A stretch of 64,000 nt of DNA from a virus. The notes beneath the pieces were generated by a model. It did no database searches. It worked only from the letters and a program-made list of their open reading frames with translations, and was not told the origin of the DNA. Of the stretch, positions 19,248 to 38,857 are shown in pieces (position 1 is the first letter of the stretch; each line of letters starts with the position of its first letter). The stretch covers positions 1 through 64,000 of the IMG/VR virus record IMGVR_UViG_3300042503_001396; one strand, given 5' to 3'. Both the position numbers and the translations under genes were made by a program.

Positions 19248-19320
19248 TAGGCGTGGTCGGATTCGAACCGACCCTGGAGGAGTTTTAAGCTCCCTGTCTC
19301 TGCCGCTGGACTACACGCCC
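19248..19320 (-). tRNA. tRNA-Leu (anticodon UAA), class I shape
   Basis: A 73-nt cloverleaf. Acceptor GGGCGTG/CACGCCT (one G-U), D arm GTC/GAC with GG in the loop, anticodon stem GGGAG/CTCCT with loop CTTAAAA (anticodon TAA), T arm GTCGG-TTCGAAT-CCGAC. The variable loop has only 5 bases, whereas bacterial tRNA-Leu has a long variable arm. CCA is not encoded. It has its own promoter at 19333-19361. Confidence 0.85.
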
Positions 19321-19332
19321 GTGTATGAGACT

Positions 19333-19361
19333 ATTATAACTCAAAGAATCATAATAGTCAA
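19333..19361 (-). promoter_or_regulatory. Sigma70 promoter for the first tRNA
   Basis: TTGACT (19356-19361), 17-bp spacer, TATAAT (19333-19338). The start region TCTCATACAC matches the start region of the repeated early modules. Confidence 0.75.
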
Positions 19362-19362
19362 G

Positions 19363-19435
19363 TGCTCGTTACTGGGATCGAACCAGTCTATCAGGTCTTA
19401 TGAGGACCGCGCTTTCGCCAGAGAGCTAAACGAGC
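19363..19435 (-). tRNA. tRNA with CAU anticodon (Met or Ile2)
   Basis: A 73-nt cloverleaf. Acceptor GCTCGTT/AACGAGC (7 perfect pairs), D loop with GG, anticodon stem GGTC/GACC with loop CTCATAA (anticodon CAT), T arm ACTGG-TTCGATC-CCAGT. A CAU anticodon may be elongator Met, or Ile if the first base is converted to lysidine; the sequence alone does not decide. No CCA is encoded. Confidence 0.8.
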
Positions 19436-19439
19436 ATTC

Positions 19440-19455
19440 GCTATTCGCAAATAGC
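19440..19455 (-). terminator. Hairpin after the HNH gene
   Basis: GCTATT-4-AATAGC, a 6-bp stem between the end of the HNH gene and the CAU tRNA. There is no strong U-tract after it on the minus strand, so it may be a processing or weak termination signal. Confidence 0.35.
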
Positions 19456-19464
19456 AAATAGTTT

Positions 19465-19878
19465 TTATTCATTTAATTGTTTTCTTTTTTTATGATACCC
19501 AATTTTTTTATTTAAAGTTTTGTAAGTATCAGTTAAAGTATGACAATTTGGACATAGTACTCTTAAATTTTCCTTATATCCATTATCTCGGGAACCATTA
19601 ATGTGATCAATTTCAAGATAAACAATTCCATTTATTGGATTTGGTTTTCCCCACCCACATTCTGTACATTTATAATTTGCTTCTTCAAGCAAATATTTTC
19701 TCACAAAATCACTTGGTCTACCATCTCCCTGTTTTCCAGTTATTTTTTTAGATAACCAATCAGTGATATTTTGTTTGTAGTAATCTTCTTGCTGGCATTT
19801 ATTTGAACAATAAAATCCTTTTCCTTGAGATGGGAAAAAATCGAATGATTTACTGCAGTTTTTACATTGTCCTTGCAT
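19465..19878 (-). CDS. HNH homing endonuclease, 137 aa
   Basis: Begins MQGQCKNCSKSFDFFPSQGK. An N-terminal zinc-ribbon-like part (CKNC, CSNKC) is followed by an HNH core: CTECGWG, YLEIDHINGSRDNGY, ENLRVLCPNCHTLTD. The free-standing gene sits inside a tRNA cluster, a common site for such elements. Its late promoter lies in the loop of a hairpin (19894-19922), as in T4 homing endonucleases whose early translation is blocked. Confidence 0.85.
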   Translation of the reverse strand: MQGQCKNCSKSFDFFPSQGKGFYCSNKCQQEDYYKQNITDWLSKKITGKQGDGRPSDFVRKYLLEEANYKCTECGWGKPNPINGIVYLEIDHINGSRDNGYKENLRVLCPNCHTLTDTYKTLNKKIGYHKKRKQLNE

Positions 19879-19893
19879 AATAGTTAGATCACT

Positions 19894-19922
19894 CTACACT
19901 TTTATTTATACTCTAAGTGTAG
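19894..19922 (-). promoter_or_regulatory. Late promoter inside a hairpin loop
   Basis: Arms CTACACTT (19922-19915) and AAGTGTAG (19901-19894) enclose TATAAATA (19910-19903). A late transcript would begin near 19897, within the downstream arm, and so lack the upstream arm. Only read-through RNA can form the full stem. The HNH ATG is 16 bases downstream. Confidence 0.75.
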
Positions 19923-19932
19923 TTTAGAGTAA

Positions 19933-20020
19933 TACGAGTGCCTGGATTCGAACCAGGTCAAAGCCGCTAATCTGGCGGAAAGAGTTTATAAGACTCCTCT
20001 GACTACCAAGTCTCACTCGC
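19933..20020 (-). tRNA. tRNA with long variable arm, identity uncertain
   Basis: An 88-nt candidate. Acceptor GCGAGTG/CACTCGT (one G-U), anticodon stem GGAGT/ACTCT with loop CTTATAA, long variable arm CCGC-loop-GCGG, T arm CCTGG-TTCGAAT-CCAGG. The anticodon position reads UAU (Ile), but a long variable arm belongs to Leu, Ser or Tyr tRNAs, and the D arm is irregular. It could be a degenerate or re-coded tRNA. Confidence 0.65.
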
Positions 20021-36859: not shown

Positions 36860-36952
36860 TATAAATAAAATTGCCTGAAGTTGACTGCAATCTCTACGGG
36901 TCGGAGAGGAGAAATCCTCTCCTTTGTAATATAAATACAAATGCAGTCAACT
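36860..36952 (+). promoter_or_regulatory. Twin late-promoter cassette with structured spacer
   Basis: In order on the plus strand: TATAAATA (36860-36867), start region GCCTGAA (36873-36879), arm AGTTGACTGCA (36879-36889), hairpin GGAGAGGA-GAAA-TCCTCTCC (36903-36922) with TTT, TATAAATA (36930-36937), and arm TGCAGTCAACT (36942-36952), followed by AAAGAG and an ATG at 36966. The same design occurs on the minus strand at 38737-38829. Confidence 0.7.
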
Positions 36953-36965
36953 AAAGAGTAAATTT

Positions 36966-37049
36966 ATGGTAAATCCTAACAGATTTTATACCTATGTCCC
37001 GGAGAAGGTTGGGATCTTGGGTTTAAAAAATCTAAAAAATCAACGTTGA
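36966..37049 (+). pseudogene. Remnant of a homing endonuclease gene, 27 codons
   Basis: ATG GTA AAT... encodes MVNPNRFYTYVPEK, then stops after NLKNQR. The start resembles GIY-YIG endonuclease N-termini (RFYTY), and the upstream cassette matches that of the endonuclease at 37958-38725. I infer that most of an endonuclease gene was lost here. It could still be expressed as a 27-aa peptide from the late promoter at 36930. Confidence 0.45.
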
Positions 37050-37062
37050 TTTTTTAGATTTT
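37027..37062. terminator. Perfect 36-bp palindrome, bidirectional terminator
   Basis: AATCTAAAAAATCAAC followed by its exact complement, with A/T flanks that give a T run on each strand. It ends the gene 26 frameshift extension (minus) and the remnant ORF (plus). Both frames end NLKNQR because the palindrome encodes the same residues in each direction. Confidence 0.75.
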
Positions 37063-37216
37063 CCTCTTCAATATATTGTTTTAGAAGAGCAATATAAATT
37101 TCTCTTTCCCATGGAATCATTTCATTAATTTCAGTAAGAGACCAACCGTGATGCTGAATCAAAGAAAAGTTTGTCTTATAAAATGATTCAAGATTCTCAT
37201 GTGAAAGAACTAGGCG
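37040..37216 (-). CDS. Gene 26 -1 frameshift extension (T-like domain)
   Basis: The frame is open from a TGA at about 37254 down to the TGA at 37040-37042 but has no ATG, GTG or TTG before its conserved-looking part, SFYKTNFSLIQHHGWSLTEI, then MIPWEREIYIALLKQYIEEE. It lies in the -1 frame relative to gene 26. A slippery T-TTT-TTC (37216-37222) sits two codons before the gene 26 stop. A frameshift would give a gp26 fusion of about 296 aa. The segment has the look of T extensions of tail assembly chaperones. Confidence 0.7.
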   Translation of the reverse strand, partial: RLVLSHENLESFYKTNFSLIQHHGWSLTEINEMIPWEREIYIALLKQYIEEENLKNQR

Positions 37217-37929
37217 AAAAAACTTGATAGTCCTTCCAGCAATACTTCACTTTCTACACCGGTATTAGGATTTTTAATTTTTAGAGTATGAGAAAGTTTA
37301 GGCATTGTTGAAAAGAAACTTTCAAGATGCTTAAATTGTTTTGAACTCAATTGTTCAATAAACTCAGACAATTCTTTTTGAGTACAATCTGATGCAGACC
37401 AAGACTCTTCTTCATTATATACTTGTTCCATGCAAGAAATAATAAGATTGAATGTGTCATCAACACTCATAGTAAACTCATTTCCAAAGTTAGATTTAAT
37501 AAACTCATTCATTGATGGATATTTCATTCTCAAAGATAAATTATCATCAAGTTTAATATCCCTTGAATGATTTTCATCAACACTAATTTGAATATCGTCA
37601 AGATTAACACTTATTGGAACCTGTGTTGTTCCATCATCTGGACAGGTAATTAAAACGTCAACCGTTTCTCCAACAGATTTTCCACGAATGTTAAGAAACA
37701 AATATTCAATATCAAAAGTTGCAAGTTGTTCAACTTTAATTCCTTTAGTTAAAATGCAATTATTAATTACAGTTTTAACAGCGTTTGCAATTTGCTTAGG
37801 ATCTTCACTCTCCATTGCAATGATCAGAATTTTTTCTTCTTTTACAAGAAAAGGGCGATATTTAATTTCTTTTTTAAGAGATGGAATTTCTAAAGAATAC
37901 GAAGGAGTTGCAATTTTTGGAAGAACCAT
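37210..37929 (-). CDS. 26: Baseplate/tail assembly protein gp26
   Basis: A 239-aa protein beginning MVLPKIATPSYSLEIPSLKK. The segments YRPFLVKEEKILIIAMES, FLNIRGKSVGETVDVLITCP and LRMKYPSMNEFIKSNFGNEF match the T4 gp26-type baseplate family as I know it. It lies between gp54 and the possible tape-measure gene. The last codons GLSSFFA contain a slippery site, so gp26 probably also exists as a longer frameshift form, as lambda gpG/gpGT does. Confidence 0.85.
   Translation of the reverse strand: MVLPKIATPSYSLEIPSLKKEIKYRPFLVKEEKILIIAMESEDPKQIANAVKTVINNCILTKGIKVEQLATFDIEYLFLNIRGKSVGETVDVLITCPDDGTTQVPISVNLDDIQISVDENHSRDIKLDDNLSLRMKYPSMNEFIKSNFGNEFTMSVDDTFNLIISCMEQVYNEEESWSASDCTQKELSEFIEQLSSKQFKHLESFFSTMPKLSHTLKIKNPNTGVESEVLLEGLSSFFA
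37216..37222 (-). other. Slippery heptamer T TTT TTC
   Basis: A perfect X-XXY-YYZ -1 slippery heptamer in the gene 26 frame, with GCC TAG following. An SD-like GGAAGGA lies 8 bases upstream (37231-37237). A possible downstream stem is TGAATCA/TGATTCA beginning about 30 bases after. Confidence 0.75.
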
Positions 37930-37957
37930 TTTTTTAATTCAAATCATTTAAACATAT

Positions 37958-38725
37958 TTAGTCTTCAATTTTAATTCGCAATATAGTATCAATATTTCTT
38001 TTTCTTTGATAATTCGAAAGTCCAGGAGCATTTGAAATATAACCAGTAACCAAACACTTCCATTTTTGCTTTCCTATATTTTGCCTCTGTTCCTTTGAAA
38101 ATGCATGAATACCTGTTTTATTTTCATATGCTTTATTTCCACTAATCTTTCCACCTTTACTTCTTGCTTTATATTTTTCTTCCTTACCTATTCCAAACAT
38201 TCCTGCATTATTTTCATACAATAATTTTCCATATTTTTTTCCAAGATTTTGTATATGACCACTTTCAACATTTTTTTGTGCTAATTTTTTACCATTTTTC
38301 TGCCTAATTTCTGTAGATACCCCATATATACCAAGTCCTAATCTTTTTTGAGTTTCTCTACCTTTATTACCATCTTGTACAATTTGTTCTTTTGTTCTTG
38401 AATGTATTCCTAACTTATTTTCAACTAATATTTTTGCTCCCTTTTTACACATTTCTATTGAAATTATTCCTCCACAATTTTCATTCAAACAATTTGGATC
38501 ATTAATTACCTGTTTAATTAATCTGTTTTCTACATTATTTGCATGTTCTCTAGAATCAAATAATTCCAATATTTGTTTTTTTGGTGTATAAAATTCCCAA
38601 CACCATTTATGAGTTACTGCAGAACCCATATAATACTCTTCATACTTTTTTTCAGTATGACTACCATAGTAATAATAAGGGACTTCTTCAAAAGTAATTT
38701 TATATGTGTATATACGAGGTTGCAT
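37958..38725 (-). CDS. GIY-YIG-type homing endonuclease, 255 aa
   Basis: Begins MQPRIYTYKITFEEVPYYYY, which fits a variant GIY-YIG start (YTYKITF ... YYYYGSH), with a later NVENRLIKQV carrying the expected Glu. The C-terminal half has three DNA-binding-type repeats (RTKEQIVQDGNKG, GKEEKYKARSKGG, FSKEQRQNIGKQKW). It is a free-standing gene inserted between gp54 and gp26, with low GC. It is expressed from a late promoter within the structured cassette at 38737-38829. Confidence 0.75.
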   Translation of the reverse strand: MQPRIYTYKITFEEVPYYYYGSHTEKKYEEYYMGSAVTHKWCWEFYTPKKQILELFDSREHANNVENRLIKQVINDPNCLNENCGGIISIEMCKKGAKILVENKLGIHSRTKEQIVQDGNKGRETQKRLGLGIYGVSTEIRQKNGKKLAQKNVESGHIQNLGKKYGKLLYENNAGMFGIGKEEKYKARSKGGKISGNKAYENKTGIHAFSKEQRQNIGKQKWKCLVTGYISNAPGLSNYQRKRNIDTILRIKIED

Positions 38726-38736
38726 AACTGCTCTTA

Positions 38737-38829
38737 AACTGGTGGTTAATATTATTTATATTAGGAAAGGAGCATTTCTGCTCCCATTCTTCCTGAAAAG
38801 AACCACCAGTTCAGGCATTAATATTTATA
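38737..38829 (-). promoter_or_regulatory. Twin late-promoter cassette before the endonuclease
   Basis: On the minus strand: TATAAATA (38829-38822), start region GCCTGAA (38816-38810), arm AACTGGTGGTT (38811-38801), hairpin GGAGCA-GAAA-TGCTCC (38784-38769) with TTT, TATAAATA (38760-38753), arm AACCACCAGTT (38747-38737), TAAGAG, then ATG at 38725. The predicted start of the second promoter is the first base of the downstream arm. Confidence 0.75.
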
Positions 38830-38857
38830 ATAACCATTACAAATATGATAAAATTAT

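Follow-up and report, generated by a model that had tools for sequence, protein, structure and literature searches.

What is the function of a leader with two predicted late promoters, complementary arms and a GC hairpin, present twice in front of endonuclease-like genes of a cyanophage? The question is raised by the window analysed here, a 64,000-nucleotide stretch of viral DNA that represents a fragment of a T4-like cyanophage, whose nearest cultured relative at the locus is Synechococcus phage S-SRM01 (~87% identical). The same window carries three tRNA genes (Leu, Met and Ile, the latter with anticodon tat) at 19248-20020 on the minus strand.

Two cassettes carried by insertions

Copy A (36860-36968, plus strand) and copy B (38829-38723, minus strand) have in common two late promoters, an 11-bp pairing arm and a GC hairpin. 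When both strands were read, all cassette elements listed in an earlier note on this DNA were found at their positions, and the perfect arm complementarity claimed for each locus was borne out: AGTTGACTGCA/TGCAGTCAACT in copy A and AACTGGTGGTT/AACCACCAGTT in copy B are complementary without mismatch, and in copy B the pairing extends to 13 bp, including one G-U. The elements are listed below; P2 denotes the pairing of the arms, P4 the GC hairpin, and P1 a helix that the earlier note had overlooked.

Copy A, plus strand:
36860..36867, +, first late promoter TATAAATA; predicted +1 at 36873, with the 5-nt spacing of 58/63 relatives
36873..36877, +, 5' strand of helix P1, GCCTG
36879..36889, +, 5' arm of P2, AGTTGACTGCA
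36897..36901, +, 3' strand of helix P1, CGGGT
36903..36922, +, GC hairpin P4 (GGAGAGGA-GAAA-TCCTCTCC), terminator-like
36930..36937, +, second late promoter TATAAATA; predicted +1 at 36943
36942..36952, +, 3' arm of P2, TGCAGTCAACT, predicted mRNA 5' end
36953..36958, +, ribosome site AAAGAG, adjoining the arm (read from the letters)
36966..37049, +, 27-codon remnant of a GIY-YIG-type endonuclease (MVNPNRFYTYVPE...), identified by the intact gene in contig L124
36835..37049 (ends approximate), +, insertion A, composed of leader copy A and the endonuclease remnant; aligned S-SRM01 lacks it

Copy B, minus strand:
38822..38829, -, first late promoter TATAAATA; predicted +1 at 38816
38810..38815, -, 5' strand of helix P1, CCTGAA
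38801..38811, -, 5' arm of P2, AACTGGTGGTT
38792..38797, -, 3' strand of helix P1, TTCAGG
38768..38785, -, GC hairpin P4 (GGGAGCA-GAAA-TGCTCCT)
38753..38760, -, second late promoter TATAAATA; predicted +1 at 38747
38737..38747, -, 3' arm of P2, AACCACCAGTT, predicted mRNA 5' end
38728..38736, -, ribosome site region TAAGAGCAG (read from the letters)
37958..38725, -, 255-aa homing endonuclease gene (PHROG_314, E 5.6e-12)
37930..38840 (ends approximate), -, insertion B, composed of leader copy B and the endonuclease gene; aligned S-SRM01 lacks it

The promoter motif TATAAATA occurs six times in the 64-kb window, four of them inside the two cassettes; followed by GCCTGAA after 5 nt, it is found at two places in the window, as against none in 100 shuffles. 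Folding of both cassette transcripts is far better than that of shuffled sequence (z -6.2 and -5.2).

Alignment with S-SRM01 (L001) identified both cassettes, together with their ORFs, as insertions. Insertion B is flanked by the tail tube gene and the baseplate hub gene. Insertion A has the gene of the baseplate hub assembly catalyst on one side and the next ORF on the other, and is encoded on the strand opposite to that of these genes. The GIY-YIG-like frame that the earlier note had placed after each copy is a full 255-aa gene behind copy B; the PHROG match identifies it as a homing endonuclease, its sequence suggests the GIY-YIG type, and the protein has no Pfam match. Behind copy A only the 27-codon remnant is present, its intact counterpart being the 209-aa gene found behind the same leader in L124. 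An 18-bp perfect inverted repeat at 37027-37062 lies where this remnant meets the neighbouring baseplate gene at its 3' end. The two ORFs terminate within the repeat, which suggests a deletion with inverted duplication.

Distribution and covariation of the module

Using the copy B protein as query, 19 loci were recovered, most of them with the same leader architecture and differing arms, whereas the intact copy A protein led to 80 loci, nearly all preceded by such a leader or by a class II leader (see below). An alignment (A1) of 63 cassettes from these protein-search loci served to build the covariance model R1, whose scores for the two window copies, both members of the training set, were 89.9 and 85.8 bits. 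With R1, whose E-values are rough, six cassettes were detected in S-SRM01, only one of which belonged to the training set, as well as at least three in phage B23 and one each in S-B68 and S-N03. No leader was detected by R1 in ACG-2014f, in RN05-S, or in Acinetobacter, Rhizobium and Pseudoalteromonas phages with related enzymes. A blastn search of the phage collection with the copy A leader found no relatives, since the leader sequence alone is too diverged.

A first pattern scan of viral contigs returned mostly chance matches and few real cassettes. A further pattern contained just the inner promoter and the hairpin's 3' end, so that copies were not chosen by the features under test; it gave 106 distinct cassettes, comprising new as well as already known loci. 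All 106 carried the P2 arm, and all 106 the outer TAAATA, for which the chance expectation is ~1.4% per locus. The cassette is a widespread module. A lack of further copies, or loss of pairing in relatives, had been named in the earlier note as evidence that would speak against the structured cassette; instead, protein, covariance-model and pattern searches yielded more than 100 copies with the pairing kept. No Rfam family matches the cassette, either in the window at gathering level or in one relative, which gave unrelated weak matches only.

The covariation first noticed between the arms was thin with two copies and holds with more than 100. Indeed, among 125 copies aligned to R1, an alignment that was itself fitted to P2 and P4, 93.3% of the cells pair, all eight P2 pairs (8/8) change on both sides, and the covariation score is 0.727 as compared with 0.233 after shuffling (0/500) and at most 0.147 with the partner strand slid. 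A swap test independent of the alignment gave a mean of -21.1 kcal/mol for own arms versus -7.6 for swapped arms, and none of 10000 permutations was as good; near-identical copies were removed, and the contigs are related, so that permutation counts are not strict probabilities. Ten P2 positions in 95 distinct cassettes comprised 890 Watson-Crick pairs, 37 G-U, 1 A-C and 22 other combinations. This preference for G-U over A-C is unexpected from a constraint at the DNA level and therefore indicates that selection acts on RNA of this strand; judged from these comparisons, the arm pairing is selected at the RNA level.

The same counts bear on an alternative at the DNA level, in which the arms would be inverted operator sites flanking the late promoter, and the endonuclease would bind them to repress its own gene in the manner of I-TevI. 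I-TevI does bind an operator over its own late promoter (PMC2988022), and the arms do form an inverted repeat around the inner promoter, but DNA symmetry does not predict 37 G-U against 1 A-C, and identical arms are found before unrelated enzymes while related enzymes have different arms. We rejected the operator on the G-U and A-C counts and consider it very improbable.

A second helix, P1, is formed by the first 5-6 bases of the outer transcript, which pair just past the arm (GUCUGU/ACAGAC, ACCUGA/UCAGGU and GCUUUA/UAAAGC are examples) and so place the arm in a hairpin loop. A complement to the own 5-mer was present in 69 of 95 leaders, as compared with 27 expected from the linkers of other groups, and the P1 swap tests gave 0/10000. 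The same 5' bases can instead lengthen P2 across the ribosome site with one bulged A; thus, P1 and the fully hidden state compete. An HDV-like or other ribozyme, suggested by the similar strand order P1-P2-P1'-P4-P2', was dropped, as there is no P3 and P2 overlaps P1, which results in competition. An RNA-guided nuclease using the arm as a guide was also discarded: visual inspection of the two empty sites showed no match to the arm, and identical arms are present at differing sites.

The outer TAAATA lies 5 nt from the predicted +1 in 58 of 63 cassettes, with a purine at +1 in 63/63; the inner TAAATA lies 5 nt before the start of the second arm in 62/63, and P2 begins at the predicted mRNA +1 or one base earlier in nearly all 63. 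The motif agrees with the late promoter of cyanophages, NATAAATA (PMC2984593), and the start positions proposed earlier (36873, 36943, 38816 and 38747) match the 5-nt spacing found in relatives, as predicted starts. It might be argued that the outer TAAATA lies outside the element and is a leftover of the insertion site, for instance the late promoter of the next phage gene, since in some contigs the preceding gene apparently extends into it. However, both window insertions bring a promoter that is missing from the empty S-SRM01 sites, and its 5-nt spacing to P1 and its presence in 106/106 cassettes make this origin highly unlikely.

Regarding P4, the hairpin of copy A scores as terminator-like in prediction, and in Salmonella phage 7-11 a near-identical hairpin lies on an annotated terminator. 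The TTT tail described earlier is short in copy A (TTTGTAAT) and even shorter in copy B (TTTCC), with TTTT in most relatives. In 54 of 63 copies, five or more of the best 8 nt past the stem are T, the U tract being poor in copy B, L130, L133, L169 and L203; therefore, termination may be partial.

A proposed mechanism of late escape and antisense restraint

We propose that the cassette is an RNA-level control module of mobile cyanophage endonuclease genes, combining hiding of the ribosome site in cis, late escape and a short antisense RNA, and assign to this whole model a probability of about 0.55. Read-through RNA, coming from upstream or from the first late promoter, would hold both arms, so that P2 would pair and the ribosome site would be hidden, with P2 lengthened by the RNA 5' end onto this site and one A bulged. 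The second late promoter, located between the arms, would start RNA exactly at the second arm, giving rise to a late mRNA that lacks the first arm and could be translated. From the first late promoter, an RNA of ~55 nt would be made, consisting of the P1 hairpin with the arm in its loop followed by the GC hairpin as terminator; by pairing with the first nucleotides and the ribosome site of its own endonuclease mRNA, it would cap translation. As each copy has a separate arm, control would for the most part stay within a copy, even where a genome carries several.

The pairing of the arms, its selection at the RNA level, the promoter spacing and the spread of the cassette are established by comparison of the copies. 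The first two steps of the model, read-through hiding and escape through the inner promoter, have strong support from these comparisons, and we infer that RNA starts at both promoters, that the hairpin brings transcription to an end and that the short product acts on its target. In silico, the median openness of the ribosome site is 0.66 in the late mRNA, 0.23 in the read-through RNA and 0.23 in the complex of the short RNA (RNA1) with the mRNA, values that stem from the same complementarity that defines the cassette family. P1 has a probability of 0.98 in RNA1 by in silico folding.

The first two steps recall the leader hairpins of T4 I-TevI, I-TevII, I-TevIII and segB and of Aeh1 mobE, in which the ribosome site is hidden on upstream transcripts (PMC2988022). 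As in these leaders, a homing endonuclease ORF lies directly downstream in T4-like phages (PHROG_314 for copy B; through L124 for copy A), an upstream RNA structure would cover the ribosome site (here the predicted drop in openness from 0.66 to 0.23), and a late promoter within the structure would give a late mRNA without the 5' arm (here predicted from the TAAATA 5 nt before the 3' arm in 62/63). The comparison with I-TevI, and the late promoter inside the hairpin, had been put forward in the earlier note, and both are supported by the 106/106 cassettes, the predicted occlusion and the T4 precedents. Unlike the I-TevI-type leaders, the cassette has an outer late promoter (106/106) and a P1 helix that holds the arm in a loop at the 5' foot, a terminator-like hairpin between the arms, and a single conserved module that serves GIY-YIG and HNH enzymes with changing arms.

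These differences weigh on a simpler explanation, in which the leader, like that of T4 I-TevI, would act solely in cis, and the outer promoter would either yield more silenced read-through RNA or serve downstream phage genes. Such control follows the known T4 pattern, read-through RNA shows the same predicted occlusion, class II leaders operate without a dedicated outer promoter, and copies with weak U tracts exist. Nevertheless, it leaves unexplained an outer promoter present in 106/106 cassettes at near-fixed spacing, as well as a conserved, covarying P1 that competes with the hidden state. Control in cis alone is thus a real possibility, well short of an even chance.

The antisense step of the proposed model is invoked because the outer promoter is constant and P1 covaries, neither being needed by a purely cis-acting leader. 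The short antisense RNA, raised in the earlier note, is plausible and has gained support from comparative data, namely the first promoter in 106/106 cassettes, the covariation of P1 and the terminator-like hairpin, whereas the weak U tract of some copies and the lack of a consistent first promoter in class II leaders speak against it. Copies within one genome have differing arms, and cross-pairing within S-SRM01, L041, B23 and the window is always weaker than own pairing. Some non-cognate pairings in one genome reach about -13 to -18 kcal/mol; thus, the separation of copies is imperfect.

Leader exchange, class II leaders and significance

ORFs downstream of the leader represent four or more GIY-YIG-like groups and several HNH groups, one of them MobE-related. 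Of 66 distinct mRNA 5' ends, 21 precede ORFs of more than one group, the groups being defined by us by motif, which indicates that leaders and enzymes have been shuffled; recombination through the leader is one way in which this could come about. Such exchange is seen in L127, where the leader carries the copy A arm and the enzyme following it is of the copy B type. Contig L041 harbours six cassettes in 14 kb, five of which could be read with their ORFs; the ORFs represent different enzyme groups, and every cassette has a separate arm. In addition, relatives of the copy A endonuclease in L227 (B23 gp45) and L230 (Sf-CH5) are annotated as translation initiation factor 2, which is probably a misannotation.

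Class II leaders (GGGCAGC ... GCGUAAGUCCC) hold an arm in a hairpin loop, followed by TAAATA and then by a complementary arm that runs into the start codon. Their own arms pair at -22.6 kcal/mol versus -12.3 when swapped (0/10000), the pattern has at least 120 matches in the viral-contig scan, and the leader has no Rfam match. An outer TAAATA was present in only 8/37; most class II leaders lack a dedicated first promoter, and therefore the short RNA is not universal to the design. A host-type promoter of their own was considered and not kept, with only 13/37 weak matches. Examples are L189:1760-1890, L200, L230 and L368-L445, located before GIY-YIG, HNH and other ORFs. A bare hairpin GGGCAGC(N)GCGUAAGUCCC, with neither a pairing arm nor an endonuclease-like gene after it, is found in L379, L405, L407, L409, L417, L436, L465 and L483, and may be a separate RNA element.

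Two phage RNAs offer further points of comparison. The C4 antisense RNA of phages P1/P7 is a short RNA whose loops pair with the target leader, partly covering the ribosome site (PMC5320573), and C4 and its targets form one operon (PMC8198154). The putative short RNA of the cassette resembles C4 in being a short phage RNA whose loop would pair with the target leader and ribosome site. C4 differs in being cut from a longer transcript by RNase P, in having three stems and in its role in superinfection immunity, and it shows no sequence or Rfam match to the cassette. CfrI of cyanophage S-PM2, of ~225 nt, is antisense to an endonuclease gene and psbA (PMC2984593); it is likewise a cyanomyovirus RNA regulator that adjoins a homing endonuclease gene, but it is encoded on the opposite strand, whereas the putative RNA described here would be ~55 nt long and arise from the same strand, upstream of the endonuclease. 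No description of twin late promoters with complementary transcript starts was found in the open-licence literature.

Taken in its broadest form, as an interchangeable same-strand antisense unit in which twin late promoters with complementary transcript starts would provide each gene with a private small RNA brake, and leaders would be shuffled among enzymes of unrelated folds, the proposal is tentative, its chances lying slightly below even. If the antisense step is true, the layout is a compact one, in which two tandem promoters on the same strand make a target and its own antisense, and the 66 distinct mRNA 5' ends represent a large natural set of differing arms. The cassette also provides an annotation marker for endonuclease genes that are currently hypothetical or misnamed. 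The copies described here constitute a large, strongly covarying RNA family missing from Rfam and common to mobile endonucleases with unrelated catalytic domains; by implication, the control RNA is passed on as a unit, and not the enzyme alone. The module apparently holds back the enzyme until infection is late; a small RNA made from it may add a further restraint.
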